Below are positions 32,830 through 50,078 of a stretch of DNA of 64,000 nucleotides, in pieces. A model generated the notes under the pieces. The model was not told the DNA's origin and made no database searches. It saw only the letters and a list, made by a program, of their open reading frames with translations. This DNA is from Ignavibacteriales bacterium. Its GTDB lineage: Bacteria > Bacteroidota > Ignavibacteria > Ignavibacteriales > Ignavibacteriaceae. How positions within the stretch are numbered: the stretch's first letter is position 1; each line of letters begins with the position of its first letter. The stretch spans positions 1 to 64,000 of the forward strand of contig JAGUYG010000009.1 of assembly GCA_020061465.1 (NCBI GenBank), given 5' to 3'. Position numbers and translations under genes: made by a program.

Positions 32830-33127
32830 AATCGAGTCTCAATAAAAATCCTTTTTCTGTATGTAAATATATGAAAAAGGGAAGTAATCAGTAATCAATC
32901 TACTGGAGATAGTAATGCGGTTTGAATAATAAAAACCTGATTAATTATGTACTGCTGACTAAGTGCTGTTCAATTATAATCGATTTGAAATAAATAATCA
33001 GGCACTGTTTCTTGCAAACAAACGGAAAAGTGAGTGAGTATTTCTAAGATGAAAAGAGATAAAGGTTGCAGCAGAATGGATGAATGGAAATAAAAAAAAT
33101 ATAAAGGAATGATTCGTACACACAGAA

Positions 33128-33247
33128 GGATTCTCCGAAGGATGCTGTTAGCAGAATCCTCAACCCTTTGATCCGAAGTCAAATGCTCTATCCAGTTTAT
33201 CCGGCGAAACTGATTTTTCGGTGAAGATGGATTGAGCTGCGGGCGCA
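33128..33247 (-). pseudogene. Decayed tRNA-Arg(TCG) copy with two inserted palindromes
   Basis: Aligns with the intact tRNA-Arg(TCG) at 49889-49962 but carries two insertions. One is 20 bases (33134-33153), TCC-GAA-GGA followed by TGCT-GTT-AGCA, in the T-arm region. The other is 36 bases (33195-33230), an imperfect palindrome, in the D-arm region. The anticodon arm is still identical (33163-33193 against 49920-49945). It cannot fold as a tRNA. The segment downstream, up to 33331, matches the spacer and the second tRNA. Confidence 0.85.
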
Positions 33248-33287
33248 GATTTTCACAATTTGTAAATTGACATGTAGCTTTTCTTTG

Positions 33288-33331
33288 TGCACCCGGAAGG
33301 ATTCGAACCTTCAACCTTCTGATCCGTAGTC
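33288..33331 (-). repeat. Left attachment site: 3' part of tRNA-Arg(ACG)
   Basis: Forty-four bases equal the 3' half of tRNA-Arg(ACG) (50005-50048) with one mismatch (T for C at 33302). Similarity stops abruptly after GTAGTC, inside the anticodon arm, where the island begins. The upstream spacer is also shared. This is the expected displaced tRNA fragment of a tRNA-targeting integrative element. Confidence 0.85.
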
Positions 33332-33587
33332 GTCGGGAATCGCTGAATTTTCGCTAAAAATAAAGAGTTTGTTGGGAACTCCATACACAGTTCATACAAT
33401 GGAAGGAGTTCTAAAATGTTCTTAGTAAAAAACAACAAGTCTTCATTTTACCAAATCGTATATTTCATCGATGGTAAAAGAACAACTCATTCCACCAAAA
33501 AGACAAACGAACAAGAAGCACTCCAATATTTGGAAGAGTTCAAGAAATCTCTTTCACTCCCTTCCGGGGTATTTGATTCAATTTCTC

Positions 33588-33604
33588 TCCCGACAGAATC
33601 GGGA
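33588..33604. repeat. TCCCGA palindrome inside the integrase
   Basis: TCCCGA-CAGAA-TCGGGA; the same arms recur at 48011-48027 inside the crcB riboswitch. It encodes part of LPTESGCSK in a weakly conserved linker. Confidence 0.6.
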
Positions 33605-34236
33605 TGTTCCAAAATAACTACTGATGAAAATAGCTTAACTCTCTCAATATTCAAAGAGGAGTATCTTGAATACTGCAATCCGGTTAAATCAAAAAAGTAT
33701 ATTGATTCAATAGCATTTTCATTTAAGCAGTTTATTTCATTGTGTGGAAATCGTTCATTAACTGAAATTGACATTCGTACAGTTGATAAATTTATCAATT
33801 CGACCTTTACACGCACAGAAAGAGGCGCTCATCTTTATTACCGTTCACTCAAGGCAGCATTCAATAAAGCTGTAGAATGGAATTACATTCCCGTTAATCC
33901 TTTTGCTAAAGTTAAATTTCCAAAGCTCTCAAACACATTTCCGGTTTTTATTTCTGAAGATGAGCTGCTGATTATACTTGCAAATACTCCGCATCAGCAT
34001 CTTAAAGATATTTTTACTGTTGCCTTTTATACCGGTTTACGTCTCAGCGAATTAATAAATATGCAGTGGAACTGGATTGAATTTCTGCAAAATCAAATTA
34101 CTGTTAAATGCACAGATGAATTCTTAACCAAAAGTAAAAAAGAAAGAATTGTTTCTATGAGTGAAAAGGTTAAAGCAATATTATTCAGAAGGTTTAATTC
34201 TGCTTCTCATAATCCTGGTGAAGTTGTTTTCTATAA

Positions 34237-34260
34237 CCTGCCTGCCGGTGGTAGGCAAGG
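34237..34260. repeat. TGCCTGCC palindrome inside the integrase
   Basis: TGCCTGCC (34239-34246) and GGTAGGCA (34250-34257) pair with one mismatch around GGT. It encodes LPAGGRQG, between the catalytic Arg and the His-Arg box, where the integrase family is variable. It is in frame. Similar CCTGCC..GGCAGG hairpins lie at 19075-19112, 47991-48004 and 49789-49818. Confidence 0.6.
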
Positions 34261-34387
34261 TGTGAAAGGGAAAATATTATATCCCGATGCTGTTAGTAGG
34301 CGATTCAGAAAAATTGTTCGTAAATCAAATCTTAGTGAAAAAATTCATTTTCATACTTTGCGGCATTCTTTCGCTTCGCTGCCGGTT

Positions 34388-34407
34388 CTCCGAAGGAGTC
34401 CTTCGGA
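34388..34407. repeat. 20-bp palindromic insertion that breaks the integrase
   Basis: CTCCGAAGGAGTCCTTCGGA lies between GTT and CAA codons. It holds two complementary 9-base halves around one base. Because 20 is not a multiple of three it shifts the frame; deleting it joins two conserved integrase blocks exactly. Confidence 0.9.
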
Positions 34408-34540
34408 CAAAAAGGTGTGTCATTATATGTAGTTAAAGAATTACTCGGTCACGAAGATTTAGCAACCACGCAAATATATTCTCACCTGCAAAAACAAAAT
34501 TTAACGGATGCGGTATATCTATTATAATTATTTATTAGGA

Positions 34541-34554
34541 GGGAGTATACTCCC
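34541..34554. terminator. Palindrome between integrase and enolase, possible bidirectional terminator
   Basis: GGGAGTATACTCCC is a perfect 14-bp palindrome in a GGAGG..CCCCC context, seven bases beyond the enolase stop and 14 beyond the integrase stop. Only short T runs follow, so termination is uncertain. Confidence 0.5.
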
Positions 34555-34560
34555 CCTTAG

Positions 34561-35841
34561 TTATTTATTTTTAAATGCTTTAATTCCTGCAAAGGAAGAA
34601 TTGCTTCCAAGCTCTTCTTCAATTCTTATAAGCTGATTGAACTTTGCAATTCGTTCACTTCTGCATCCGCTTCCTGTTTTTATGTGTCCGGCATTGGTTG
34701 CTACTACTAAATCCGAAATTGTTGTATCTTCTGTTTCGCCACTTCTGTGCGAAATAAAATTATTGTAATTATTTTTCTTTGCAAGATTGATTGTTTGCAG
34801 TGTTTCAGTTACAGTTCCTATTTGATTTAATTTTATCAGAATCGAATTAGCAATTCCTTTCTCAATTCCTTCTTTTAATATTTTTGGATTGGTGCAGAAG
34901 ATATCATCTCCAACTAATTCAATTTTATTCCCTAATTCTTTAGTAAGATTTTTCCAGCCTTCCCAATCGTTTTCTGCCATTCCGTCTTCCAAAAGAATTA
35001 TGGGATAATCGTTAACCCATTTCTTCCAGATTTCAATCATCTCATCTGATGAAGCTAAATGCTGGTCTGATTTGAAGAATTTATACTTTCCATTTTCCCA
35101 CATTTCGCTCGCAGCCGGGTCTAAACAAATTGAAACATCAACACCGGGTTTATATCCGGCTTTTTCAATTCCTTCAAGAATAGATTCAACAGCTTCTTCA
35201 TTTGATTTTAAGTTTGGTGCAAATCCACCCTCATCTCCAACTCCGGTTGAATATTCTTTTTTCTTTAATATCTCTTTAAGTGTATGAAATACTTCAATTC
35301 CCATTCTTATAGATTCTTTAAACGATGGAGCGTTGTGCGGTGCAATCATAAATTCCTGAAAGTCAACATTATTATCAGCGTGTTTTCCACCGTTTATAAC
35401 ATTCATACAAGGAACTGGCATGATGTATTTTTTTTTATCGTTTAAATAACGATAAAGAGGAATGCCTTTTTTCAAGGCTGCAGCACGTGCAAAAGCAATT
35501 GATACACCAAGAATAGCATTAGCACCAAGCCGGGCTTTATTAGATGTGCCATCTAATTTTATTAAAGTCTTATCTAATTCTTTTTGTGATTCAAAAAATT
35601 TTTTGAAAAGATGTTCAGCAATTTCTTTATTAACATTTTCAACGGCTTTAAGAACACCTTTGCCTTTAAATCTTGATCTATCACCATCCCTTAATTCAAC
35701 AGCTTCTCTTTCTCCGGTGCTTGCTCCACTTGGCACAATTGCTCTTCCAAAGAATTTATTGTCAAGTGTAACATCAACTTCCACCGTTGGATTTCCTCTT
35801 GAATCTAAAATCTCTCTGCCGACTACTTTAGTTATTTTCAT
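34561..35841 (-). CDS. eno: Enolase
   Basis: 426 residues. Converts 2-phosphoglycerate to phosphoenolpyruvate with magnesium. Visible: [58 protein letters not shown] with catalytic Glu, [21 protein letters not shown], the catalytic Lys in [28 protein letters not shown], and [15 protein letters not shown]. All active-site residues appear intact. Enolase is strongly inhibited by fluoride with phosphate and magnesium. It is the last gene of the minus-strand run MFS, zinc-finger protein, pyrophosphatase, enolase, headed by the fluoride riboswitch at 39632-39684. Whether a second eno exists elsewhere cannot be seen. Confidence 0.96.
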
Positions 35842-35931
35842 TTTATAATCTTCCTTTTTTATTTATATCTCTAATTCGTAATAGAAAACTTTATATCAAA
35901 GTTTCTTATGTGAATAAACAATTAATATTGA

Positions 35932-37932
35932 TTAAAATAAATTTGCAACAAACTGACTAATCTTGTTTGAATATCTTACAAACACCGGAGCAAATACCAA
36001 AGAAACTACAGACATTAATTTAATAAGGATATTCATTGAAGGTCCGGTTGTATCTTTAAATGGATCACCCACTGTATCGCCAACAATTGCAGCGGCGTGA
36101 GTTGGAGTTCCTTTGCCCCCGAGGTTTCCTTCTTCAATCCATTTTTTTGAATTATCCCATGCAGCGCCAGCATTTGCCATCATTATTCCGAGAAGAACCC
36201 CCGTTGCAGTAGCACCAGCTAAAAATCCGCCAAGAGTTTCAACACCTAAAAATAATCCCACAAGCAAAGGAACAATTACCGCAAGAAGTCCCGGAAGAAT
36301 CATTTCTTTAAGTGCACCTTTAGTAACAATATCAACGCAGGCAGCAGTATCTGGTTTACCGGTGCCTTCAAGCAAACCGACAATTTCTTTAAACTGCCTT
36401 CTTATTTCTAAGATCATTTTATCGGCAGTTCTTCCAACAGCTTTCATAGTAAGTGAGGCAATTATAAACGGCATTAGTGCACCAATTAACAGTCCCACTA
36501 CAGGCATATGTTTTGTCAGATCAATTGCCTGTAAATTAACTGAGTGTTGAAAAGCTGAAAACAATGCAAGCGCAGTTAAGGCGGCTGAACCTATAGCAAA
36601 TCCTTTTCCTATCGCTGCGGTTGTATTGCCAAGTGCATCAAGCTTATCGGTAATTTTTCTAACTTCTTTTCCAAGCCCAGACATTTCCGCAATACCTCCT
36701 GCGTTATCTGCTATTGGTCCGTAGGAATCAGTTGACATTACAATTCCAATTGTAGAAAGCATTCCGACTGCTGCTAAAGCAATTCCATAAAGTCCGCTTA
36801 ATGTAAATGAAATAATAATTGCTATGGCAATTGTTATTATAGGTAAAATTGTACTTTCAAATCCTATGGCTAGCCCGGTAATAATTGTTGTTGCGGCACC
36901 AGACTCCGAACTCTTTGCAATACTCTTTATTGGTGAACCGGAAGTATAATATTCGCTTTCAATACCTATTAGTATTCCACAAAATAATCCGGTTATTACA
37001 ACCCAGAATTCATTTAAACTGCCAACTATAATTTTTGAAGCAAAGTAAGCCCCGATTATAAATACTATTCCGGCAACATAAGTTGTATTTCGTAACGCAG
37101 TTTGGGGGTTCATTTTTTTTAGTATATTTATTGAAAAAATTCCTGTTAAAGAAGCTATTAAGCCGATGGTTATAAACACAATTGGCAAGACAGAATACTC
37201 AAAAGCCATTTCAGAAAAAGTTGCAGCAATAGCAATAGAAGCTACAACTGAACCCACATAGGATTCAAAAAGATCTGCACCCATTCCTGCAGTATCACCA
37301 ACACAATCGCCGACATTATCTGCAATAACTCCGGGATTTCTTGGATCATCTTCCGGAATTCCTGCTTCTACTTTACCAACCAAATCAGCACCAACATCTG
37401 CGCTTTTTGTATAGATACCGCCGCCTACTCTTGCAAATAGAGCTATTGATGAAGCGCCGAGTGCATATCCACTAATAATCTCTGGATTTTTTGTGAAGAA
37501 GAAAACAAGACCGAGACCAACCACACCTATAGCTGCAACAGAAATTCCCATAACTGAACCACCGAGAAATGCTGTTAACAGAGCCAGAGGAGAACCACCG
37601 GTTACTGCTGCCTGACAGCTTCTGCTGCTGCTTCGTGTTGCTGCCTGCATTCCAAAAATACCAGCCAACATTGATGAAATTGCTCCGCCGATATATGCTA
37701 TTCCGGTATAAAGGGATAAAAAGATCGTTAAAATTATAAATACAGCACTCATAAAGATTGCAATTATTTGATACTCTCTTTTAAGAAATACCATAGCACC
37801 AATATGAATTTGTTCTGCTATTTCTTTCATTTTTTCATTTCCGGCATCGCGTCTCATTACCAATTTGTAGATAAAAAGTGCGCATAATAATCCTGCTAAA
37901 CCGATTAATGGAATCCATAATATATTTTCCAT
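35932..37932 (-). CDS. hppA: Membrane-bound ion-translocating pyrophosphatase
   Basis: 666 residues, about 16 membrane helices. Hydrolyses pyrophosphate while pumping H+ or Na+. Visible: the signature [28 protein letters not shown] followed by [15 protein letters not shown] (given in parts), [16 protein letters not shown], and the C-terminal [19 protein letters not shown]. The [16 protein letters not shown] segment has Ala rather than Lys, the mark of potassium-dependent enzymes; ion specificity is not resolved. Soluble family I/II pyrophosphatases are fluoride-sensitive, which gives a reason for its place in this riboswitch-led operon. Ten bases downstream of the zinc-finger gene. Confidence 0.95.
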
Positions 37933-37942
37933 AATTATTCCC

Positions 37943-38245
37943 TTATTTTTTAGATGTTGTAAAAAGAATATCCCCTCTTTGAAGCCGTGGATATTTTGGA
38001 TTTGTCAGGTCTCTTATATCTTGAGTATAAATAACATTAATAGAAATATTTTTATCTAATTCCGGGAATTGAAGCTCATCGTAAACTTTATTCTTTTCAA
38101 CCGGTAAGTGATGTTCTAGTTCATCTCTTGAAAAAAATATTTTCCCGCAAACGCCACATCTGAAAATTTTTCCGCTAATAGTTTCAATCGAAAACGGAAT
38201 TTTATTTTTCATTCTGAATTTAGCGGTTAGTTTTGGAGCTGACAT
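37943..38245 (-). CDS. Small protein with C2H2-like zinc finger, fluoride operon
   Basis: 100 residues, not recognised. One zinc-finger-like unit: Cys30-x2-Cys33-x11-His45-His46 ([19 protein letters not shown]), preceded by a basic N-terminus. The C-terminal half is [25 protein letters not shown]. It lies between the MFS transporter (79 bases upstream) and hppA (10 bases downstream) in the riboswitch-led transcript, so it belongs to the fluoride response by context. It could be a regulator or an RNA/DNA binder; nothing in the sequence decides. Confidence 0.7.
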
Positions 38246-38324
38246 AATTCAAATATTATAAAATTATAAGGTTACAAAATTGCAAGACTTATATACTAAT
38301 TTTTTAATCTTGAAATCATAATTC

Positions 38325-39587
38325 TCATTTATAAAATAAAATTGTAATAGTGCCGATTAACATTAGCACACCTGTTGCAGCAAATCCTGCTATTGGTGAA
38401 AAAGCTGTCCATAAAAATCCAATTAATATGCTGGCAGTAAAATCACCAATACCATTAACCGTTCCTAAAACGCCCATTGCAATTCCTCTTGTTTCAGTTG
38501 AAATATGGTCTGCGGTAATTGCGGTTTCAAGAGTATCTTCTGCTGCTATATAAATTCCGGCGAAAGTAAAAAGCGCGAAAAGAAAAATCAGATTTGAAAT
38601 ATTCAATATAAAAGCAAGCATAAAACCGGCAACCGTTAGCGTTGCAAGAAAATATCCGGCAGCAAGCAAATACACTCTCTTTATTTTATCACTTAAAGCG
38701 CCTATAGGATATGAAGCGAGAGTATAGGAAATGTTTCTAGCGATATACATCATTCCTGCAAGCTGTGCAGCTTTAACAATTCCGTATTCAGTTGTAAGCA
38801 ATGTAGTGGCTGCAAGAATTAAAAATGTAGGGGCAAAATCACCGAGTCCAAATATTCCTACACCAACTAAATAACTTTTAAATTGTGTTGGAAAACCTTT
38901 AATTGTTAACCAGAATTTTAAGTTATGATTTTTATCTTTGTGTGTGTCTTTTACCATTAAGGCGAAACTTAATACTGCAAGCATACCAGGAATCAGAGTA
39001 ATCAAAAAAATATTACGAAAAGGTTTTGAAGGATTATCGATTGATAATGGTTGCCACACTTCCAACAATATTATTCCGATTACCGGACCGATAATAGCGC
39101 CTAAAGTATCGCCGGCTCTATGAAACCCAAAAGCTTTTCCTCTGACTTCGGGTGCTACTGCATCAGCAAGCATTGCATCTCTTATTGGACCACGAAAACC
39201 TCTTCCAATCCACGCAGTTAATCTGCCGAGAAAGACAAGATGCCAGGTTAATGCAAATGCAAAAAGTGCTTTAGAAATGCCGGTAATAAAATAGCCTGCT
39301 GAAGCTAATAATTTTCGTTTGCCTATTTTATCAGATATCCACCCAGCCCACAGTTTTATGAAACTTGAGGCAGCATCAGAAACACCTTCGATTATTCCTA
39401 GAGCAGAAGGCGGTGCACCAATTACAGATAAAAATCCCGGCAGAACAGTTGTAGCCATTTCGTGAGAAGCATCTGAAAAGAAGCTTGCAAGCCCCATTCC
39501 GGCTACACTTCGGTTAAACCATTTTTGTTTTGATTTTTGGGTACCCGGAATATTATTTATTTCGGGTGACTGAGAAATGTTATTCAA
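38325..39587 (-). CDS. MFS transporter under a fluoride riboswitch
   Basis: 420 residues with 12 predicted helices. Typical MFS loops: AGWISDKIGKRKLL between helices 2 and 3, GRLTAWIGRGFRGPIRDAM, and YPIGALSDKIKRVYLL in the second half. The start is TTG at 39587, with AGGAG at 39596-39600. That same AGGAG can pair with the CTCCT at the 3' end of the riboswitch, so start and control go together. Permeases of this type are known among fluoride-riboswitch genes; whether it moves fluoride, magnesium or something else is unknown. First gene of the eno operon. Confidence 0.9.
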   Translation of the reverse strand: MNNISQSPEINNIPGTQKSKQKWFNRSVAGMGLASFFSDASHEMATTVLPGFLSVIGAPPSALGIIEGVSDAASSFIKLWAGWISDKIGKRKLLASAGYFITGISKALFAFALTWHLVFLGRLTAWIGRGFRGPIRDAMLADAVAPEVRGKAFGFHRAGDTLGAIIGPVIGIILLEVWQPLSIDNPSKPFRNIFLITLIPGMLAVLSFALMVKDTHKDKNHNLKFWLTIKGFPTQFKSYLVGVGIFGLGDFAPTFLILAATTLLTTEYGIVKAAQLAGMMYIARNISYTLASYPIGALSDKIKRVYLLAAGYFLATLTVAGFMLAFILNISNLIFLFALFTFAGIYIAAEDTLETAITADHISTETRGIAMGVLGTVNGIGDFTASILIGFLWTAFSPIAGFAATGVLMLIGTITILFYK

Positions 39588-39631
39588 AAAAAAACTCCTG
39601 CACCAAAGGTATTGAAAAATAATAATCTTAG

Positions 39632-39684
39632 TGAAGGAGTTATCAATCCCGAGGGATGGTTTTAAAGGCGAACTCCATCGCCAA
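39632..39684 (-). promoter_or_regulatory. Fluoride (crcB) riboswitch upstream of the MFS-hppA-eno operon
   Basis: On the minus strand: GGCGATGGAGTTCGCC, then AAAACC, a short ATCCC-TCG-GGGAT-like stem, then TGATAACTCCTTC. This is the conserved aptamer layout (GATGG, hairpin, TGAT-ACTCC). The 3' AACTCCT can alternatively pair with AGGAGTT (39594-39600), which carries the ribosome binding site of the MFS gene and runs into a T tract, so control may be translational, transcriptional or both. Fluoride binding should free the genes. Confidence 0.92.
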
Positions 39685-39934
39685 TTTTCAGTACAAAAAT
39701 AATGAATTTAAACTAATAAGGAAATTATTAAAAACTGTTTTGTTAGGTTTATTAGAATAATTACCTTTACATATTATTTTTATTATTTGTAAATAAAACG
39801 GTAATGCAATGTCTGATTCAGATGAACCTGACGCTAATCTAAATAATTTACTTAATCTAAAAACCCTCCCACGGAAATAGTACCTATGAATTTTCATTGG
39901 TTTATCTCCGGGATAATTATGATTGGAGATGCCT
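39685..39934 (+). promoter_or_regulatory. Divergent control region before mgtE
   Basis: Intergenic region between the minus-strand riboswitch and mgtE. I looked for a fluoride aptamer or a ykoK-type magnesium box on the plus strand and found neither. It must hold divergent promoters, which I cannot place. GGAG at 39925-39928 is the mgtE ribosome binding site. Confidence 0.4.
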
Positions 39935-41314
39935 ATGAAAAATTTAATCCTCTTACCAGAATTCAAAGAAATTATTGAAACCCAAAATTGGCAACTATTT
40001 AAAGATATATGTGAGGATAGCCATCCTGCAGAAATTGCTGATTTATTATCGGCACTTGAGCCAAAAGAAGTTTGGGAATTAATTGAAAAGTTAGAAATCT
40101 CTGGAAGGTCTGAAATATTCAGTCACCTTGATTTATACTTGCAAATTGAAATAACTGAAGTTATTGACCGCAAAAGGTTAGCAGAATTACTTACCGAATT
40201 ACCTTCGGATGATAGAGTAGATTTATTCAAAAAATTCCCGTTAGAAAAACAAGAATATATATTACCTGCTTTAGCGCAAGCTGAGAGAGAAGATATCCGG
40301 CGACTGGCTTCGTATCCTGAAAAAAGTGCCGGCTCTGTTATGACTTCTGAATATGTTTCTCTTCCTGACAATATTACTGTTCAAGAGTCAATAAACAAAC
40401 TTCGGCTTGAAGCTCCTAAAAAAGAAACTATTTATTATAGCTACATCATAAACAGCGCAAGACAATTAATTGGATTTATTTCTTTATCAGATTTAATAAT
40501 GGCAAATCCTCATTCCGTTATCAAAGATATAATGCACGAAGAAATAATATTTGCAACAATTGATGAAGACCAGGAATCAGCAGCAAGAAAAATTCAGAAA
40601 TATGATTTGATTGCAATTCCGGTTGTAAATGGAAATCATACTTTAGTAGGTATAATAACTCACGATGATGCTCTTGATATTATAACCCAAGAGCAGACGG
40701 AAGACTTTGAAAAAATAATGGCTATTGGCGGCGCTCACGAAGCCGGTGTTTATCTTAAAACTCCTGCTTTTACACATTTTAAAAATCGTGCGGTTTGGAT
40801 TATTAGCCTCGCAGCGCTTGGATTAGTTTCCGGCATTATCATTCACAATTTTGAATCTACTTTAACAAGTATGATGATACTTGCACTTTATATGCCGATG
40901 GTTGCCGATACTGGCGGAAACACCGGAAGTCAGTCCGCAACAGTAATAGTCCGTGCACTTGCATTAGGTGAAGTTAATTTTAAGGATGCTCTTAAAGTTT
41001 TATGGAAAGAATTTCGTATATCAATTTTATTGGCTTTAGCACTTGGACTTCTTTCTTGGGGAAAAGTAATGTTCTTATCTCAAGGGACAGAAATTCCAAA
41101 TGGTTTTACATTAAAGACTATTGGTTTTGTAATTGCTATAGCACTTTCTTTACAAGTAATAACTGCAACATTAATCGGCGCTTTTTTACCAATGCTCGCT
41201 TCAAAATTTAAATTGGATCCGGCGGTAATAGCAAGCCCTGCACTAACAACAATAGTGGATATAACCGGATTATTAATTTATTTTACAACAGCAAAAATAA
41301 TTTTAAGGATTTAA
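39935..41314 (+). CDS. mgtE: Magnesium transporter MgtE
   Basis: 459 residues from the ATG at 39935, which follows GGAG by six bases; TTG at 39923 and ATG at 39929 are alternatives. Layout: intracellular N domain (about 1-125, EDSHPAEIADLLSALEP, LPSDDRVDLFKKFP), paired CBS domains (about 130-250), then five membrane helices with the P-loop-like PMVADTGGNTGSQSATVIVRALALGE. Passive magnesium channel gated by internal magnesium. Only gene of the eno-mgtE-mutS stretch on the plus strand. Fluoride forms magnesium complexes, so its presence in the island may keep magnesium available; this is inference. Confidence 0.93.
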   Translation: MKNLILLPEFKEIIETQNWQLFKDICEDSHPAEIADLLSALEPKEVWELIEKLEISGRSEIFSHLDLYLQIEITEVIDRKRLAELLTELPSDDRVDLFKKFPLEKQEYILPALAQAEREDIRRLASYPEKSAGSVMTSEYVSLPDNITVQESINKLRLEAPKKETIYYSYIINSARQLIGFISLSDLIMANPHSVIKDIMHEEIIFATIDEDQESAARKIQKYDLIAIPVVNGNHTLVGIITHDDALDIITQEQTEDFEKIMAIGGAHEAGVYLKTPAFTHFKNRAVWIISLAALGLVSGIIIHNFESTLTSMMILALYMPMVADTGGNTGSQSATVIVRALALGEVNFKDALKVLWKEFRISILLALALGLLSWGKVMFLSQGTEIPNGFTLKTIGFVIAIALSLQVITATLIGAFLPMLASKFKLDPAVIASPALTTIVDITGLLIYFTTAKIILRI

Positions 41315-41330
41315 TAAAATCTATTTACAG

Positions 41331-41741
41331 TTATTTAGCTGTTTTTTCCAAAATTATTTTTATTTCTTCCAATTTATAATTTTCATCTTCGAGAATTCCT
41401 ATTAGTTTTTCCGGGCTGTCTTCCGGTTTTACCCATTCAAGAAAATTTTTCATATATTTTTTCCCGATTTCATAAGCTTCCTTTTTAATATCCGGCAATG
41501 GAAAAAGAACGAATCTTATTTCTGTTTGGATAATAAATTTCAATTCATCAATCAGATTAATTATTTCTGTTTCGATTTCAGAAAATTTTTTACTGGCAAT
41601 ATTATTCATTCTTTCAATATCGAATAGTAATAAGCTGCATTTTACAGCAGCTTCAGCGTAGCTTCTTTTCAGACAAATCTTTTTTATTTCACTCACTACA
41701 AATATTAATGAATCTTTTGTTCGATCATTCATTGCAATCAT
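41331..41741 (-). CDS. Hypothetical helical protein, end of the MutS-like operon
   Basis: 136 residues, predicted all-helical, no signal or membrane segment, no recognised domain. Opens MIAMNDRTKDSLIFVVSEIKKIC; the second Met could be the start. It sits 12 bases after the DUF6062-like gene and ends the run begun at the riboswitch 45531-45585. Its role is unknown; context links it to the MutS-like pair. Confidence 0.65.
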   Translation of the reverse strand: MIAMNDRTKDSLIFVVSEIKKICLKRSYAEAAVKCSLLLFDIERMNNIASKKFSEIETEIINLIDELKFIIQTEIRFVLFPLPDIKKEAYEIGKKYMKNFLEWVKPEDSPEKLIGILEDENYKLEEIKIILEKTAK

Positions 41742-41753
41742 TCAATCAATTAT

Positions 41754-42419
41754 TTATAATCCTCTGGTTTTCCGTCCTGCAAGCTTTTCTATAAGAACGT
41801 TTATCAGTTTTCTTTTTTCGCGGTCAATTTCATAAAATGATTTATGGCTGCTCATTTCTTCAAAATCACCCTGCATTCTTTCGATTTGTGTTTTATAAGT
41901 ATTATTCAACCACAATTTTATATTTTCATCTGCTATTATTTTATCGGCTTGTTTTAAATGAACAGAACAAATTCCGTTTGTTGCTTTATATTTATTTCTG
42001 TTTTCTTCCTGCCGTAGAATATCAGTAAAATTTTTTACGCATTCCTTTTCATATTCATTAACTGAATTACAAATTCTACATTCAATTCCATAATTGTCTT
42101 TTTTATCCGAAGGATCTTTTGAATAAATTTTTTCTTCAATAATTGTATTCAGTAAAAGGATATTAGTTTTACCGCCTGCAATTTTTTTAAACTGCCGGAA
42201 GTGAAAATCACAGAAGCCGCCTTCACTAGAAATTTCTCTTCTGATATTTTCTTCATTTGCAACTTTATGCTGCAGTTTTGCAAGAAAATCAAATTCAAAA
42301 TCCATAACCATTGAGCATAAAGGACATCCGTTCTCTTTAACTATTCGATTAATTATTTCTTTCTTAACAGAAGAATTAAATTGAACAATATTTTTTTCAG
42401 CTTCAGTTATTGACATCAT
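41754..42419 (-). CDS. Cys/His-rich protein, DUF6062-like
   Basis: 221 residues. Two repeats of Cys-x2-Cys followed by Cys-x2-His: CPLC (32-35) with CDFH (70-73), and CRIC (114-117) with CSVH (151-154). This suggests two zinc- or metal-binding units and resembles DUF6062 proteins of unknown function. KDPSDK (101-106), between the repeats, is encoded by a palindromic element in frame. The start overlaps the upstream MutS-like gene by 17 bases, showing tight coupling. Confidence 0.7.
   Translation of the reverse strand: MMSITEAEKNIVQFNSSVKKEIINRIVKENGCPLCSMVMDFEFDFLAKLQHKVANEENIRREISSEGGFCDFHFRQFKKIAGGKTNILLLNTIIEEKIYSKDPSDKKDNYGIECRICNSVNEYEKECVKNFTDILRQEENRNKYKATNGICSVHLKQADKIIADENIKLWLNNTYKTQIERMQGDFEEMSSHKSFYEIDREKRKLINVLIEKLAGRKTRGL
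42106..42122. repeat. Palindromic element inside the DUF6062-like gene
   Basis: TCCGAAGGATCTTTTGA, a slightly decayed copy. It falls in the linker between the two Cys/His repeats and keeps the reading frame. Confidence 0.55.
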
Positions 42420-43974
42420 CTTTTTTTAAGAATATTTCATTAAACAAATCTTCTCCATAACTTGTTTGCATCGGTTCTCCTTCTTTTATTTTAAAAGTGC
42501 GGGTTCCATCTTTCAGCCGTTCTGCCCGCAAGAAAATGGCATTATTAATATTTCTTTCATAAAAATTATGAGCGAATTCATATTGATGAGTAACAAAAAA
42601 TACTTTTATGCCGCTTTCAATTAAAGCATTTGTTATTTGGCGGGCTATTTCAGATCCTTCTCTTTCATTAGTTGCAGAAAATGATTCATTAAAAAGAACC
42701 ATAGATTTTGAGTTTACTTTATCAACAATTTCGCTCATTCTGTTAAGCTCTTCATCTAATTTGCCGCTTTCCATTGCAGTATCTTCTTCACGTTTGAAGT
42801 GAGTGAAAATGCTATCTCGAATTTCTGCAGAAAATTTTTCTGCCGGGACAAACATTCCTGCCTGCATCATTAGTTGAGCAATACCTAAACTTCGCAACAA
42901 AGTAGATTTACCACCAGTATTTGCTCCGGTAATTATAAAAAGATCTTTGCCGTCAGCACGGAGATCATTACCAACAACTTTCTTACCTGAGCTTAATGCA
43001 AGGTTTATATCATATAATTCTGAAAATGATAATATCTTTTTCCCGGAAGAGAATAGATTTGGAAAGCAAATCGGTTCTTTAAGTTGTTTAAGTTTATTAC
43101 ATAAGTTTAGACAGCCAACATAAAATGCCAACTCCGTCCGGAGCACCTGAAAGAAATTAAGAATATGATCCATTGATTGTGCTAACGCATTAGCAACAAG
43201 ATTAATGCTTTGATTTCGTAACTCAGATAAAGCTCTTGCCCCAGCTTCATCCCGCGGATGAATTTCATAAGTGTAACCGTCAAGTTTTTTAGATAAAAGC
43301 CGTTCCCACCATTTTCGATTATCTTTAGGCGGCTTATGTAAAACATAATTTGTACCTTTATTTCCAAAGCCTAATTCAGTGCTTACAAGAATACCGTCCT
43401 TAAACTTCAATTCATTCAATTGATAATTTAATTCATCTAAGTATTCTTCGCTCAATTCTTCTTTCAGCATTTTAAATAATCTTTTAAAACCTTCTGAATC
43501 AAAATCATTTTCATTTCGCTCAACTATTGTTCTCAGTTTAAACAGCATTTCCGAAAACATTTCAAGTTTGTTTCGTGCCTGGTGAAGAACACTATCCGGT
43601 TTCTCCTTCAAAAAACCCCAGCCATAGATAGCTTTTTCTTTTTCAATAGTTTCTAATATTAGTTTGTAAGTATCTCTTACAATCACCTCATTCTTTATGC
43701 AATCCTTTAGAATATTTTGTCTGTAATAAATTGAATCTGCATCTTTAGTAGAATTTAAAATGATTACTTTTACGTCTTCGTATATGAAGTTGTCTTTTTC
43801 TGCCATAGCATTAAATAATATATCTAAACCTAAATCCTGTATTAATTCTTGATGATTCCAAGGAAGAAGTAGTCCTAAATCCGGGATATTTTCGCGACTA
43901 TATTTTTTTTCTCTTTTAACTAAGATCTTATCCAGGTCAAAATCCCGGTCTTTGAACATTAAAAATGATTTCAT
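42403..43974 (-). CDS. MutS-like ATPase, second of a pair
   Basis: 523 residues. C-terminal MutS-family ATPase: Walker A TGANTGGKSTLLRS (near 347-360), Walker B-like SMVLFNESFSATNEREG (NES instead of the usual DE), and VFFVTHQYEFA. The N-terminal 330 residues correspond to the helical lever/core; there is no mismatch-recognition domain I and no Smr nuclease tail, so this is not canonical MutS or MutS2. Members of this group are known among fluoride-riboswitch genes, but their job there is not established. Start overlaps the preceding MutS-like gene by four bases. Confidence 0.85.
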   Translation of the reverse strand: MKSFLMFKDRDFDLDKILVKREKKYSRENIPDLGLLLPWNHQELIQDLGLDILFNAMAEKDNFIYEDVKVIILNSTKDADSIYYRQNILKDCIKNEVIVRDTYKLILETIEKEKAIYGWGFLKEKPDSVLHQARNKLEMFSEMLFKLRTIVERNENDFDSEGFKRLFKMLKEELSEEYLDELNYQLNELKFKDGILVSTELGFGNKGTNYVLHKPPKDNRKWWERLLSKKLDGYTYEIHPRDEAGARALSELRNQSINLVANALAQSMDHILNFFQVLRTELAFYVGCLNLCNKLKQLKEPICFPNLFSSGKKILSFSELYDINLALSSGKKVVGNDLRADGKDLFIITGANTGGKSTLLRSLGIAQLMMQAGMFVPAEKFSAEIRDSIFTHFKREEDTAMESGKLDEELNRMSEIVDKVNSKSMVLFNESFSATNEREGSEIARQITNALIESGIKVFFVTHQYEFAHNFYERNINNAIFLRAERLKDGTRTFKIKEGEPMQTSYGEDLFNEIFLKKDDVNN

Positions 43975-45509
43975 TTATTAATTCGCCCCATAATATTATT
44001 ATATCCGAGCTTGTATTTTTCTGCAATTGCCATTGCATAAGCGAGTCCATCGGCGGGACGCCTTATAATTTTAAATGTTCGTAAAGCCGGAGTTTCCGGA
44101 ACAATCATACTTGTCATTGATACAGTTTGCTCATTAAAATTTGCCAGCTCATCTATGAAAGTTACCCAAACACATATAATATCCAGATCAATAATTTTTT
44201 CTAATAATTTGGTACTTAAAAATTTCATATCCTGCAGAGTAGTTGAATTAAAAATTTCATTCATAACAATAATTGATTGTGAAGTAGCATTTTGTAAAAC
44301 AGAATGAATTCTTTTAAGATCATCCTCTAATTTTCCTCGAAGATTTTCAACCTTTTCTACTCTTTCAAATTGAGTAAAAATATTATCAGCAAGGTAAAGT
44401 TGTGCTTTGCTTCCAGGGACTGTACAACCGATACTTGCAAGATAATGCAGTTGCCCGAATGTACGTGCAAAAGTTGTTTTACCACCCTGATTAGGACCGG
44501 TTACAGCTATAATCCTTTCTTTGTCCTTTAAATAAAAATCATTACAGATAATTCGTGAATTATTTTTGTTTAACTTTTGAGCTAATGCCAGATCAAATCC
44601 TTCATAACTGTATATTTCCTTAGATTTATTTACAATTTGCGGATAGCAAAATTTCAATTTATTCTGCTTAAATTTTTTGATGTGCTCTATATATGAAATA
44701 TAAAAATGTATTTCTCTGTCATAAGAAGATATTATCTCATTAATGAAATTTGCATTATTGATGAGAAAATTCTTTAGTCTTGAAAATAAATCCGGATATA
44801 GTTGTGATACAAAATCCAATATTTTGACTTCGATGTGGTTCATTTCCGTCGGTGAGGATTTGTATTCTACTTTGTAGTCTTTCACAGCCTCCTGATTAAA
44901 TTTTTCAAAAACCTTTTCAATCTCAGTGCTATAGTCAATTCCGGGTTCAAAATTTTGAACAGTAAATGAACCTTCCTGAATTATAATTTGATATTTAACT
45001 TTCGCAAGATCTTCCTTAATTCTTTTTATGTCATCTGCGAGAGAAATAAAATCTTCGCTTAAAGAATAATTTGTTAAGTAGTCTTTAATTTTGAGAAAAC
45101 CTTGTGATTTAATTGATGAAGAGGATAAATTTCCAGAAAAGTTTTTTACAGCATCACAATAAATCCCTGCTGCGTATAGAAACCAGATTTCTTTCTGCTC
45201 TATGTAAAAAAATTTTTCTATTAGCTCTATATATTTGCGGACTTTGCGCATTTGGTCAGCAAATAAATTTACGTGTTCATAAAATGTTTCAGTCTCAAGA
45301 TCCCGGAAAACATTATGACGGTATTCAATAGCATCTAAATCTTTCAGTGGGAAATAGAAGAATGACTTTAAATCGTATTTCTGCCAACCGGTAGTAATTT
45401 CATCAACTATCTGATCTAAATTTAAATCTTTGAAATGTTCTGGCTGTTTAATAGGAAGATTTTGCAGGTATCCAACTTGTTTATCGAAAATTATGCTAAT
45501 GAAGCTCAT
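43971..45509 (-). CDS. MutS-like ATPase, first of a pair
   Basis: 512 residues, paralogous in design to the next gene: an N-terminal helical region, then Walker A TGPNQGGKTTFART (near 330-343), Walker B-like SIIVMNEIFNSTTLQD, and VWVTFIDELA. It ends in ADGLAYAMAIAEKYKLG, as in MutS-type ATPases. No domain I. The two proteins probably form a heterodimer, since MutS ATPase sites are built across dimers. The gene follows the aptamer at 45531-45585 directly; AAAGGA is ten bases before the ATG. Confidence 0.85.
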   Translation of the reverse strand: MSFISIIFDKQVGYLQNLPIKQPEHFKDLNLDQIVDEITTGWQKYDLKSFFYFPLKDLDAIEYRHNVFRDLETETFYEHVNLFADQMRKVRKYIELIEKFFYIEQKEIWFLYAAGIYCDAVKNFSGNLSSSSIKSQGFLKIKDYLTNYSLSEDFISLADDIKRIKEDLAKVKYQIIIQEGSFTVQNFEPGIDYSTEIEKVFEKFNQEAVKDYKVEYKSSPTEMNHIEVKILDFVSQLYPDLFSRLKNFLINNANFINEIISSYDREIHFYISYIEHIKKFKQNKLKFCYPQIVNKSKEIYSYEGFDLALAQKLNKNNSRIICNDFYLKDKERIIAVTGPNQGGKTTFARTFGQLHYLASIGCTVPGSKAQLYLADNIFTQFERVEKVENLRGKLEDDLKRIHSVLQNATSQSIIVMNEIFNSTTLQDMKFLSTKLLEKIIDLDIICVWVTFIDELANFNEQTVSMTSMIVPETPALRTFKIIRRPADGLAYAMAIAEKYKLGYNNIMGRINK

Positions 45510-45530
45510 ACTAATTAAAATCCTTTTATT

Positions 45531-45585
45531 ATAGAAGCCATCAATCCAGCTGCGGCGGGATATTTACGGCGAGCTTCATCGCCTT
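45531..45585 (-). promoter_or_regulatory. Fluoride riboswitch before the MutS-like pair
   Basis: Minus strand: GGCGATGAAGCTCGCC, TAAAT, an ATCC..GGAT stem, then TTGATGGCTTCTAT. GAAGC and GCTTC co-vary with the GGAGT/ACTCC of the other three copies, strongly supporting a true aptamer. It begins only ten bases after the usp stop, so it appears to be an internal switch in the crcB transcript, or it has a promoter within usp. Confidence 0.88.
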
Positions 45586-45594
45586 ATAGAAAAA

Positions 45595-46020
45595 TTAATT
45601 TTTAACTATCAGAACATCGCAATGTGCATTTTCGCTTATCATATCAGCTGTATGCCCAAGCAACCTTCCCCACAGATTAGAATGACCTTTGCTGCCCACT
45701 ACAACTAAACCGATATGCTCTTTTTCAGCATAAGTAATTATAGTTTTCGTTGTGTGTCCCTGCTGGTAAATAAACCTGATTGGATAATTCATTTGTTTTG
45801 AAAAATGTTTGACTTCAACCTCAAGTTTATTTGCAAAGGCAAGAGCACCATCCTGTTCCTGTTTTACTTCACTGATAGTCTCCGGATAGTGGGGCAATTT
45901 GCTTTGAACCCAGATTGCCGTTAATTCAGATTGATGTAGCTGAGCTATTTTTATAGCACGATCAATTGCTTTTTTGCTTCCTTCAGAACCATCATAAGCA
46001 ACCAATATTTTTTTATACAT
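45595..46020 (-). CDS. Universal stress protein (UspA family)
   Basis: About 141 residues from the ATG at 46020; a TTG twelve bases upstream is possible. Begins MYKKILVAYDGSEGSKKAIDRAI and ends with the ATP-binding segment VVGSKGHSNLWGRLLGHTADMI and CDVLIVKN. Usp proteins bind ATP and aid stress survival. Usp genes are among those reported under fluoride riboswitches. It follows the antiporter gene by 15 bases in the crcB operon. Confidence 0.92.
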   Translation of the reverse strand: MYKKILVAYDGSEGSKKAIDRAIKIAQLHQSELTAIWVQSKLPHYPETISEVKQEQDGALAFANKLEVEVKHFSKQMNYPIRFIYQQGHTTKTIITYAEKEHIGLVVVGSKGHSNLWGRLLGHTADMISENAHCDVLIVKN

Positions 46021-46035
46021 TTTATTACCCAATGA

Positions 46036-47220
46036 TTATTTTTTATTGTTTTTCTTTTTACTAATTCTTGATAGTCTTCCCCAGGCGTGCATCATAACCT
46101 CACTTGGCTGGAAGAATTTCTGAGCTATTAAAGTTGGAATAATCGCACTTAAAATTACAACCGTTACCAAAACTGTGTATTGTGATTGATCAATGATTTT
46201 ATTCGTTAAACCAAATAGGGCTGAGATTGTACCGAAGGTTAATCCGGTTGCCATTAATAACGTAGTATAATTTGCTTCACGTATTCTCATTTTTGATACT
46301 CTTGCAAGAGGATAAACGCCGATAAATTTTGTCCCAAGCTTTATTGCTAGTAAAATAACTATTATGATTAATGAAGAAATCAAAACCGGGAGAGAAACAT
46401 ATAAACCTGCTTTGATGAAATAAAAAGGTGTAAATATTGTAAAAGCGATTGTTCTCATTCTTGTAACTAAAGTTTTATCTCTTACAAATACTCCTGCAAC
46501 AACAAGCCCTATCAGATACGCCGGCAGAACAGCTTCACTTTTTGCGGTAGTTGCTAAACCACCAAGGAAAAAAAGAACAAGTAAAATAAATTTAACTTCC
46601 GGCTCACTGATTCTTGTTGCACCCATTTTTGTAATAATGAATTTTGTCCATCTCGGCATATACCAAAGCATAACACAAAGCACAACTACAAAAACCAGTA
46701 ACCAGATATTGAAATCCGCAAAAAGAATGCCTAGAGCAAATACGGTTCCAAAATCTGTAATGAAACAAGCAGCAAGAATCATTTTGCCAAGTGGTGTATT
46801 ACTTAAACCCTTTTCTACCATAACAGCATAAACAACTGCTACAGAAGTAGTAGAAAGTGCTATTCCTGCAATCTGAGACTGCTGCCATCCCCAACCGGCA
46901 ACATAAAATGTGAAAAATAATATGCCAAGAAACGGGAGGAGAAAAGAACTCACCCCTATTAAAAGACTTTCTTTAAGATGTGCTTTAAGTGATGCCGGGT
47001 CTATTTCAGCACCTGCAAGAAAAGTTAATACACCACTTCCAAGCATAGCAAGAAAGTTTATCCATTCGGTTGTTTCATGAATACCAAGAAAATTTCCTGC
47101 TAATATCCCAATAAATATTTCGACAAGTGCTACTGAAATACCAATCCGTATAGAAATAAGACTCGCAACAAATGCTAATCCCATCCAAACTGCAGCAGCA
47201 AACCAGATATTTTCCAGCAT
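46036..47220 (-). CDS. CPA2-type cation:proton antiporter
   Basis: 394 residues, 12 or so membrane helices, no TrkA domain. Typical elements: VEIFIGILAGNFLG, LTFLAGAEIDPASLK, and the core CFITDFGTVFALG with an ion-site Asp; ALSTTSVAVVYAVM is the first discontinuous helix. Sodium/proton antiporters are known in fluoride regulons; fluoride enters as HF and acidifies the cytoplasm, so a pH role is plausible. Third gene after crcB and DUF190. Confidence 0.9.
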   Translation of the reverse strand: MLENIWFAAAVWMGLAFVASLISIRIGISVALVEIFIGILAGNFLGIHETTEWINFLAMLGSGVLTFLAGAEIDPASLKAHLKESLLIGVSSFLLPFLGILFFTFYVAGWGWQQSQIAGIALSTTSVAVVYAVMVEKGLSNTPLGKMILAACFITDFGTVFALGILFADFNIWLLVFVVVLCVMLWYMPRWTKFIITKMGATRISEPEVKFILLVLFFLGGLATTAKSEAVLPAYLIGLVVAGVFVRDKTLVTRMRTIAFTIFTPFYFIKAGLYVSLPVLISSLIIIVILLAIKLGTKFIGVYPLARVSKMRIREANYTTLLMATGLTFGTISALFGLTNKIIDQSQYTVLVTVVILSAIIPTLIAQKFFQPSEVMMHAWGRLSRISKKKNNKK

Positions 47221-47235
47221 CTATTTCCTTACCAT

Positions 47236-47586
47236 TTATTTTTCATTTCCAATGTATTTTATAATTTCCACCTTTTCCATAGTAATTAATCCACCGCTGT
47301 TAGCTTCTTCAAAAATATCATGTAGAATTGGAAGAAATTTTTCAATTTTTTCTTCTTCATCTACAATTTCAATTACCATTGGCATATCCTCTGAAAGCCG
47401 TAAAATTTTTGCAGTATGAATACGGCTCGTTCTGCCAAATCCCATCACCCCCTTAAATACTGTAGCTCCTGCAAGATGAAGTTTTCTCGCTTCCTGAACT
47501 ATCCTTTCATACACAGTAATATGGTGGAGAATATCTGTTTCACCAACAAAAATTCTGACAAGCTTTGCTTCGCCTTTTAATTCCAT
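47236..47586 (-). CDS. DUF190 protein
   Basis: 116 residues. ARLVRIFVGETDI-like opening (AKLVRIFVGETDI), LAGATVFKGVMGFG, MPMVIEIVDEEEKIEKFLP: a PII-like ferredoxin fold typical of DUF190, which commonly accompanies crcB. Probably a small soluble regulator of the channel; function not established. ATG lies directly next to the crcB stop. Confidence 0.92.
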   Translation of the reverse strand: MELKGEAKLVRIFVGETDILHHITVYERIVQEARKLHLAGATVFKGVMGFGRTSRIHTAKILRLSEDMPMVIEIVDEEEKIEKFLPILHDIFEEANSGGLITMEKVEIIKYIGNEK

Positions 47587-47919
47587 TTAAGCTCCTGTTA
47601 ATAGTTTAGAAATTTTATAAGCTGTGAAAAGGAATTCTTTTTCTTTAAGAAAATTAATTGTCTTGAAGGAAAAGGTCGAAAATGTAGTCAGTCCGCCGCA
47701 GAACCCAACTGTTAGAAAAATTCTTAATTCCTGGTCAATTAATTCATTGTCATTGAAATAATACATCACAATACCAATTATAAAACTACCTAGAATATTA
47801 ACTAATAAGGTACCATAAGGAAATGTAGGTGGAAGGAATCTATAGATATAATTTGAACTCCAATAACGCAAAATACCACCGATACCTGTTCCAAAGAATA
47901 CTAAGATATAATTTTGCAA
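47587..47919 (-). CDS. crcB: Fluoride channel CrcB/Fluc, apparently lacking the last helix
   Basis: 110 residues from TTG, with TAGGA about ten bases upstream. Helices 1-3 are intact, with Arg18, PYGTLLVNILGSF (34-46, pore Asn41) and GFCGGLTTFSTFSFKTI, including the phenylalanine-box FSTFS (80-84). After FLKEKEFLF only TAYKISKLLTGA remains, about 15-20 residues short of the usual fourth helix, and the next gene begins at once. Family role: dimeric fluoride-selective export channel of the inner membrane. The truncation may impair it or be a recent deletion. Confidence 0.9.
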   Translation of the reverse strand: MQNYILVFFGTGIGGILRYWSSNYIYRFLPPTFPYGTLLVNILGSFIIGIVMYYFNDNELIDQELRIFLTVGFCGGLTTFSTFSFKTINFLKEKEFLFTAYKISKLLTGA

Positions 47920-47965
47920 TGATGTTTTCCTACCTTAATCAATAGTTACTGTATTTGTTTTTTAA

Positions 47966-48080
47966 GATAGGAGTTATCAGTCCGGTATATCTGCCGATAG
48001 GCAGGGTTTCTCCCGACATTCTCGGGAAATGTGTTAGGACGGTTATCTCTGCTAAGTGGGAAGGTGAACTCCATCACCAA
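47966..48080 (-). promoter_or_regulatory. Fluoride riboswitch of the crcB operon, enlarged by nested palindromes
   Basis: Minus strand: GGTGATGGAGTTCACC opens the aptamer and GGACTGATAACTCCTATC closes it, with the P3 pair GTCC/GGAC. Its loop is expanded by two hairpins: TCCCGA/TCGGGA (48011-48027) and CTGCC-GATA-GGCAG (47991-48004). The 3' TCCTATC can pair with GGTAGGA, which is the crcB ribosome binding site region, implying control of translation. Confidence 0.92.
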
Positions 48081-48162
48081 TGCAAAGTTAGCCAACGTTA
48101 ACTTTAAAAACAATTTATAAACAATTCTGCATTGTTAAAATGAATTAAAATAATTATGTTCG

Positions 48163-48220
48163 TAACAGCGATGGAGTTCGCTTAACATTCAGCTTTAATA
48201 AGGAATTGATGACTCCTACT
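48163..48220 (+). promoter_or_regulatory. Fluoride riboswitch before the metallophosphoesterase operon
   Basis: Plus strand: GCGATGGAGTTCGC (48168-48181), TTAAC, an ATTC/GAAT stem, then TGATGACTCCTAC. It is divergent from the crcB riboswitch, with about 80 bases between the two aptamers that must hold both promoters. Confidence 0.92.
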
Positions 48221-48246
48221 TAATTAATTTTACGGTAGGAGTTTTT
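48212..48246 (+). terminator. Riboswitch expression platform (terminator)
   Basis: ACTCCTAC (48212-48219), the 3' strand of the aptamer, is fully complementary to GTAGGAGT (48235-48242), followed by five T. Aptamer and terminator are therefore mutually exclusive: without fluoride transcription should stop here, with fluoride it should continue. Confidence 0.88.
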
Positions 48247-48276
48247 CCTCCTGCCTTTAATTCTCAAATATAATTT

Positions 48277-48959: not shown

Positions 48960-48966
48960 TCTTAAA

Positions 48967-49350
48967 ATGATTTTTTACTGCACAAACTGTTGGAAAGAAA
49001 TAAAACCAGACGACAAGATCTGTCCCAATTGTGGTGCCGATCAAACAGAACTTGAAAATGAATCTTTTGTAAAAAAGTTAATAAAAGCATTAAATCACCC
49101 GGAACCTGAAACGCCAATTAGAGCAGCAAATATTTTAGCTCAGTTAAAAGTAAAAAAAGCAGTCCCATTTTTAATTGCTAAGTTAAAAAATGAAAAAGAT
49201 CCTTTTATAATTGAAGCAGTTGTTAAAGCATTACTTGAGATTGATGAAGACCAAACTAAATCAGCTATATTATCTCGTCTTGCCGGATTAAAAAATCCTC
49301 CTGTTACCATTAAGAAAATATTTGAGGAGTTGAAAAAAACGAATGAATGA
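48967..49350 (+). CDS. Zinc-ribbon plus HEAT-repeat small protein
   Basis: 127 residues. N-terminal zinc ribbon with Cys5, Cys8, Cys19 and Cys22 (YCTNCWKEI, ICPNCGA), then about three HEAT/PBS-type helical pairs (IRAANILAQLKVKKAVPFL, IEAVVKALLEI). Likely a protein-interaction adaptor in the cytoplasm. Seven bases after the phosphatase gene, so under the same riboswitch. Function unknown. Confidence 0.78.
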   Translation: MIFYCTNCWKEIKPDDKICPNCGADQTELENESFVKKLIKALNHPEPETPIRAANILAQLKVKKAVPFLIAKLKNEKDPFIIEAVVKALLEIDEDQTKSAILSRLAGLKNPPVTIKKIFEELKKTNE

Positions 49351-49880: not shown

Positions 49881-49888
49881 TCTTCTTG

Positions 49889-49962
49889 TACGCCCGGAAG
49901 GACTCGAACCCTCAACCCTTTGATCCGAAGTCAAATGCTCTATCCAATTGAGCTACGGGCGC
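49889..49962 (-). tRNA. tRNA-Arg(TCG)
   Basis: Cloverleaf: acceptor GCGCCCG with CGGGCGT, D arm AGCTC..GAGC, anticodon stem TTTGA/TCAAA with loop CTTCGGA (anticodon TCG), T arm with GGTTCGAGTCC. CCA is not encoded. A decayed copy lies at 33128-33247. Confidence 0.95.
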
Positions 49963-50004
49963 AGATTTTCACAATTTGTAAATTGGCATGTTAGCTTTTC
50001 TTTG

Positions 50005-50078
50005 TGCACCCGGAAGGACTCGAACCTTCAACCTTCTGATCCGTAGTCAGATGCTCTATCCAATTAAGCTACGGGTGC
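50005..50078 (-). tRNA. tRNA-Arg(ACG)
   Basis: Acceptor GCACCCG/CGGGTGC, anticodon stem TCTGA/TCAGA with loop CTACGGA (anticodon ACG), T arm GGTTCGAGTCC. CCA is not encoded. Its 3' 44 bases are repeated at 33288-33331, marking it as the integration target and right boundary of the island. Confidence 0.95.

Follow-up and report, generated by a model that had tools for sequence, protein, structure and literature searches.

Very small palindromic inserts in displaced tRNA genes of an Ignavibacteriales genome, with a possible preference for hairpin tips

How two palindromic stretches came to lie within a decayed tRNA pair at one end of a genomic island, and to what extent a nearby intact pair preserves the state before their arrival, is the question raised by positions 33128-33331 of the window analysed here (the whole stretch of 64,000 nucleotides, bases 1-64000 of contig C15 in a 4.2-Mb draft genome of 122 contigs from an Ignavibacteriales bacterium). 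The first-pass annotation had viewed the left pair as a fossil that was released from selection by integration and then gained a 20-base double hairpin and a 36-base imperfect palindrome. The following features are relevant for this part of the locus:

33125..33331, reverse strand: displaced tRNA-Arg(TCG) and 3' part of tRNA-Arg(ACG), both pseudogenes, at the left island end (alignment to 49897-50048)
33134..33153, no strand assigned: 20-nt insert composed of TCC-GAA-GGA (9-nt half) and TGCT-GTT-AGCA (11-nt half), within the T-loop (C56^57)
33195..33230, no strand assigned: imperfect palindrome of 36 nt, lying in the D-loop shortly ahead of G18G19 as read on the tRNA strand
33285..33331, reverse strand: remnant of the 3' part of tRNA-Arg(ACG), the left attachment site (1 mismatch to 50002-50048)
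49888..49962, reverse strand: intact tRNA-Arg(TCG), the insert-free counterpart (ARAGORN; Rfam 68 bits)
50004..50078, reverse strand: intact tRNA-Arg(ACG) at the right island end (ARAGORN; Rfam 71.2 bits)

Pairwise alignment of 33125-33331 with 49897-50048 yielded 146 matches, 5 mismatches and 57 gap columns, the latter consisting of the 20-nt insert, the 36-nt insert and a 1-nt deletion, and both inserts were recovered exactly where the first-pass annotation had placed them. Congruent with its description of nearly identical flanks, the left pair is 97% identical to the intact pair at 49888-50078 outside the two inserts; extension of the alignment to the acceptor end added 3 further mismatches in the left copy, and ARAGORN called no tRNA in 33128-33331. 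After 33331, which falls within the anticodon arm of tRNA-Arg(ACG), the likeness ends; the integrase gene begins at 33416. The left pair and the integrase probably reflect what is usually seen where an island has entered a tRNA gene, with a replacement sequence that here would also span the neighbouring tRNA gene. The proposed before/after view holds in that an insert-free counterpart exists, but the right pair is a close paralogue and not the literal ancestor. Three of the 5 substitutions of the left copy, at 33131 and 33157 beside the T-loop insert and at 33302 in the other remnant, make the T-arms more perfectly palindromic, a pattern as expected from quasi-palindrome repair.

The island itself (33416-49783) looks like a fluoride-response island, with four fluoride riboswitches and CrcB (47587-47919), and further includes genes for DUF190, enolase, H+-pyrophosphatase, a Na/H exchanger, MFS and MgtE. 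Within it, two tandem genes at 42403-45509 have MutS domain V as their sole MutS-related Pfam hit. At 56867-56980, an RNA match to group II intron D1-D4 was detected.

The direction of the change was assessed in relatives. Among the loci supplied to ARAGORN, tRNA-Arg(TCG) was intact in 5 relatives' loci from 4 genomes (G001, G003, G013 and G017), and tRNA-Arg(CCG) in 18 of 18; the search for the latter in 41 genomes gave 21 matches in relatives, 18 of which were scanned by ARAGORN, and 22 of the 41 genomes were without a match. None of the other 394 among 395 genomes of the phylum has the T-loop-insert pattern. As the tRNAs of the relatives are insert-free, the left form has gained its inserts, in agreement with the earlier claim of gain rather than loss.

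An insert of the same length interrupts the integrase gene of the island:

33416..34432, forward strand: tyrosine integrase of the island (PF00589, E 1.1e-21), its frame broken by a 20-nt insert and resuming past it
34389..34408, forward strand: 20-nt insert TCCGAAGGAGTCCTTCGGAC in the integrase gene, at GTTC^A or one base leftward (from the empty sites of relatives)
34238..34261, forward strand: second palindromic stretch of ~24 nt, in frame, its ends uncertain by a few bases (8 residues missing in L221 and L229)

The reading frame is lost at GTT^CAA, where CTCCGAAGGAGTCCTTCGGA (or its one-base shift) stands between HTLRHSFASLPV and QKGVSLYVV. Both pieces of the integrase were matched by 8 of 11 relatives' loci (L223-L229 without L222, and L231; in L221 and L222 only the first piece was matched, and in L230 neither was), and extra bases were present in none of the eight. 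The empty site reads CTGGTTCAGCG in L223, and the second integrase of L224 has CTTGTTCAAAAG there. The tRNA and integrase sites are both filled here and empty at the same place in relatives. The two inserts are equal in length, as had been claimed, and the 9-nt half is common to them. Palindromes of the CCTGCCTGCC type are located at 34238-34261, in frame in the integrase, and at 49789-49818, in an intergenic position at the other island end.

Further tRNA fossils of the same genome carry 20 nt at the very same T-loop point. On contig C41, a fossil of tRNA-Arg(CCG), its anticodon being a reading from the alignment, was matched across the insert in a genome search and has no tRNA match from Rfam. 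Its 20 nt are placed at C56^57 and read TGCT-ATA-AGCA-TCC-TTC-GGA on the tRNA strand, and the D-loop harbors an 18-nt palindrome, unlike that of C15, just before G18G19. The stems are retained, with 3 differences counted from the G024 gene outside the inserts. This fossil remains at its ancestral place, adjoined by PHP and TPR genes; among the 18 tRNA-Arg(CCG) loci of relatives, which span only ~2-3 kb, TPR was matched in 17 and partially in 1, and PHP in 10. A second tRNA-Arg(CCG) of the genome, on C47, is intact and unrelated to the C41 type. On C73, an intact tRNA-Pro(CGG) is followed by a GIY-YIG gene (PF01541) and then by a displaced 3' part of tRNA-Pro, in which 20 nt (TTCCGAAGGAATCCTTTGGA) are found precisely at TTC^GAA, again C56^57; in this part (L102 1928-2001), the 17-nt anticodon arm has in addition been swapped for a different 17-nt hairpin, TGGCGCCTTTGGCGCCA. 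The view that integration released the copies from selection thus fits C15 and C73 but not C41, where the tRNA has stayed at its ancestral place and an unrelated tRNA-Arg(CCG) exists at another location in the genome.

A T-arm pattern (the 9-nt half plus an unconstrained 11-nt half, at most 1 mismatch), composed after the three cases were known, gave 3 matches in 395 genomes, namely C15, C41 and C73, and the reversed control gave 1 match in each of 2 genomes among the 395 scanned. All three matches are opposite to the tRNA strand, and the inserts therefore have the same orientation. Similarly, TGCTNNNAGCATCCTTCGGA, the pattern of the T-loop 20-mer with 17 specified letters, was recovered with at most 1 mismatch at 2 places in 21 genomes, C15 and C41, both exact and both in T-loops of tRNA-Arg, with 1 match each in G016 and G018 for the reversed control across the 21 genomes. 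The T-loop 20-mer is not a product of chance.

One explanation for this distribution is a single insertion in the T-loop of one tRNA-Arg that spread to the other by gene conversion, without any special targeting. Indeed, the TGCT-NNN-AGCA variant is found only at C15 and C41 among the 21 genomes, in both cases in a tRNA-Arg. However, the bases flanking the inserts differ (GGATTC..GAATCC versus GGACTT..GAACCC), as do the D-loop inserts, and C73, a tRNA-Pro, and the integrase contain different variants at sites of this type; we hence consider gene conversion an unlikely origin.

A tRNA-Leu array is present on the same contig at C15:88353-88956 (L084 8354-8957), where an intact tRNA-Leu(CAA) is located between two insert-bearing copies, along with more-decayed fragments. 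In both of these copies, a palindromic insert of 39 nt adjoins the variable arm and is not in a tip, and the tRNA-Leu fossil inserts, being situated at a stem junction or next to that arm, count against a loop-tip reading.

The 20-nt family is widespread. At least 116 stretches of genome_contigs hold at least one exact match to the common form, TCCRAAGGAGTCCTTYGGAC, as compared to a chance expectation of ~2 calculated with equal base frequencies. Among the matches listed, 78 of 80 records, several of which derive from one assembly, belong to Bacteroidota, Chlorobiota, Balneolota or Ignavibacteriota, and the other two to LCP-89 and Brocadiia. A looser pattern, exploited in 21 genomes, gave 45 copies here, 13 in G001, 9 in G019, 2 in G015 and 1 each in G003 and G011, with no copies in the remaining 15 of 21 and no match at all for the reversed control. 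Equating the 45 copies with 45 insertions was rejected, as 13 of the 22 copies read (in 20 regions) sit in two longer repeat contexts. We defined 118 distinct sites, with 30 bases present on both sides and duplicate flanks removed. The element is preceded by C at 112 of the 118 sites and followed by A at 71. No convincing target-site duplication, as looked for in a MITE, was detected; the T-loop sites gain 20 nt, and the integrase site has a 1-nt ambiguity only.

The same sites are informative on target preference. With the stem measured as the longest perfect pairing between left and right flank starting at most 5 bases from the insert, a flanking stem of at least 6 bp was identified at 12 of the 118 sites, which are not all independent because some share contexts, and one of at least 7 bp at 7. 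Permutation of the right flanks (1000 times) resulted in means of 1.2 (maximum 5) and 0.36 (maximum 3), respectively, and 200 sets of random positions chosen to share both adjacent bases in 1.4 (maximum 6) and 0.56 (maximum 4); the observed counts were reached by none of the control sets, permuted or matched random. An earlier and smaller run had placed 10 of 83 sites in tips, versus 0.93 (maximum 5 in 500). A stem of at least 6 bp is missing at 106 of the 118 sites. Together with the 3 matches of the T-arm pattern in 395 genomes, the excess of hairpin tips supports a target preference, which the first-pass annotation had proposed to look for at other insertions. Across the window as a whole there is no hairpin excess, with 18 perfect 7-bp hairpins versus 8-19 in ten first-order Markov sequences. 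On C109, a Y1 transposase gene is located amid several palindrome families (L248 2780-3920), and near this gene AAACCGTT..AACGGTTT palindromes are present both empty and filled, that is, without and with a TCCGAAGGATCC-type insert at the tip.

It had also been proposed, from the second half of the T-loop insert, that the stem sequence can differ while the fold is kept. A 4+3+4 hairpin adjoins 273 of 360 TCCRAAGGA sites, a count that takes both strands of an element and in which most loci were fetched for the motif, versus 1-6 of 357-359 at eight shifted offsets. The stem is GTCC/GGAC in 135 and CTCC/GGAG in 130, the latter mainly from the opposite strand of the same elements. The 8 of 273 outside the two strands of the common form are TTCC/GGAA (3), TGCT/AGCA (2), ATCC/GGAT (2) and GAGC/GCTC (1), with one L175 element counted twice, as TTCC and ATCC, and with the GAGC case perhaps due to chance. 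Stem changes with retained fold thus receive modest support: TGCT/AGCA, TTCC/GGAA and ATCC/GGAT do exist, but these rarer types are few and partly double-counted, and 1-6 hairpins are expected by chance. In DNA folding, the T-loop 20-mer displayed a z of -1.30 alone, with TGCT/AGCA as the sole pairing, and of -2.71 with flanks, and the 3-bp half by itself was not supported; the common 20-mer and the integrase copy fold as one 8-bp hairpin, not two. The R and Y combinations (40, 36, 33 and 9 among the 118 sites) do not fit one maintained long hairpin, and the 20-nt element may fold as one hairpin or as two. Changes in unselected copies (22 rows, with some elements represented by both strands) amounted to 17 in the loop and 36 in the stem, 28 of the latter at positions 10 and 20, and no conclusion was based on this tally.

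The 36-nt insert folds barely beyond shuffles (z -1.35 alone and -1.89 with flanks). Its 13-letter core is found at 4 places in the genome, C15:33197, C15:88237, C15:88566 and one on C57, three of which are in tRNA fossils (88237 and 88566 in the tRNA-Leu array), and with 24 matches in the other 20 genomes versus 11 for the reversed control. The imperfect palindrome of the earlier description is present and modestly palindromic, but its family differs from that of the 20-nt element.

Alternatively, such inserts may have arisen locally once the tRNA genes were released, through template switching or the repair of quasi-palindromes, with no mobile element involved. The substitutions at 33131, 33157 and 33302, which raise the palindromy of the T-arms, are in agreement with such an origin, and so is the 36-nt insert, which compared with the C57 copy resembles a family palindrome enlarged near its apex. 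An identical 20-mer at unrelated places and in different species, with a rarer variant at two loci, is on the other hand unexpected from local copying, and we deem this origin rather improbable. That the interrupted genes serve a function for which they are retained, namely as tRNA-like structured RNAs whose D- and T-loops bear hairpins, is very improbable, for although C41 has kept its stems with 3 differences from the G024 gene outside the inserts, and C15 and C41 have their inserts at two nearly identical points, the acceptor end of C15 is decayed, the T-loop pattern is in no other genome of the 395 scanned and an unrelated intact tRNA-Arg(CCG) is available.

The best explanation, and one we regard as probable, is that the island displaced the tRNA pair, and that very small palindromic elements then inserted into it. 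On its integration into tRNA-Arg(ACG), the island would have supplied new sequence to replace both tRNA genes, and the old pair at 33125-33331 would therefore have lost its function. Afterwards, the 20-nt element would have entered the T-loop of the displaced pair, and a member of the second palindrome family its D-loop. In such a model, the 20-nt element would consist of a 9-nt and then an 11-nt hairpin, with a 3-nt loop in each, that adds 20 nt after YYC, usually before A, without clear target duplication. The tRNA T-arm, GGTTC^GAATCC, would be a target of this hairpin-tip kind. Most likely, it is an enzyme that sets the 20-mer down at YYC^A within a hairpin tip, and redundant tRNAs would be tolerated as its targets; inserts would be visible only in redundant tRNA copies, because interrupting a working tRNA would be costly. 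The inserts, their empty sites, the family, its site letters and the excess in hairpin tips are shown. It is likely that the element is mobile and that redundancy has a role in keeping the inserts, and hairpin DNA may be the feature that is recognised.

The enzyme would act in trans, and a Y1/HUH transposase is the first candidate. It fits in principle, since such transposases act on hairpins at element ends: in PMC3116915, this is described for the IS608 transposase and proposed for RAYTs. Y1_Tnp genes are present in 19 of the 21 genomes. A dependence of element number on the number of Y1 transposases was considered and rejected, as there was no clear link in the 21 genomes. A model we label 'RAYT-like', derived from nine other Y1 proteins, hit 4 of 116 element loci (818 kb), compared to ~0.7 expected from 72 Y1_Tnp hits in ~85 Mb, the two counts stemming from different models, and 3 of the 4 hits are kilobases away from the element. 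IS200-type Y1 genes near elements looked suggestive at L241, L242 and L248 and were also rejected, a separate model built from nine IS200-type genes having hit 0 of 116 element loci. The link between Y1 and the 20-nt element is a weak one.

Bacteria commonly contain palindromic repeats of very small size. Cyanobacterial small dispersed repeats are very small, dispersed and presumably mobile, and the Rickettsia palindromic elements, which are longer than 20 nt, are inserted within genes, some of them in frame; both are likened to the 20-nt element by description. Fungal mitochondrial double-hairpin elements were reportedly treated by Paquin et al. in 2000. A literature text search with 20-mer strings was without match, and a keyword search, mostly judged from listings, returned no work recognised as concerning the 20-nt element, with subscription journals mostly outside the coverage of both. 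Mobile palindromic GC clusters of yeast mitochondria (PMC4478555) and fungal mitochondrial double-hairpin elements (PMC7218506) are already in print and are, like the 20-nt element, short, non-coding, palindromic, dispersed and present or absent among relatives. GC42, as described in PMC4478555, is a mitochondrial element of 42 nt with short flanking direct repeats and changes enriched in loops, whereas the present element is bacterial, has 20 nt, lacks a clear target duplication and prefers hairpin tips. REP and REPIN sequences are likewise small palindromes, mostly extragenic (PMC3116915, PMC3733652), and REP dimers within palindromes are in print, with some GTAG and CGTC families inside other palindromes (PMC3733652). 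They are defined by a GTAG or CGTC tag at the palindrome end, in contrast to the 20-mer, as inspection of both strands of TCCRAAGGAGTCCTTYGGAC revealed neither tag. We class the 20-nt element with the very small dispersed palindromic elements.

To our knowledge, how such repeats move is mostly unknown, in part because pairs of empty and filled sites are seldom at hand. Redundant tRNA genes, whose original sequence is known, allow an exact comparison of the states before and after insertion. The three tRNA fossils and the integrase together amount to four such sites, and the hairpin-tip excess in the larger set suggests what the machinery of insertion may be recognising. Tentatively, the 20-nt elements of Bacteroidota and Ignavibacteriota, which would be among the smallest known, may insert at the tips of hairpins in single-stranded DNA (or RNA), which would make tRNA T-loops natural targets and redundant tRNAs their recorders.
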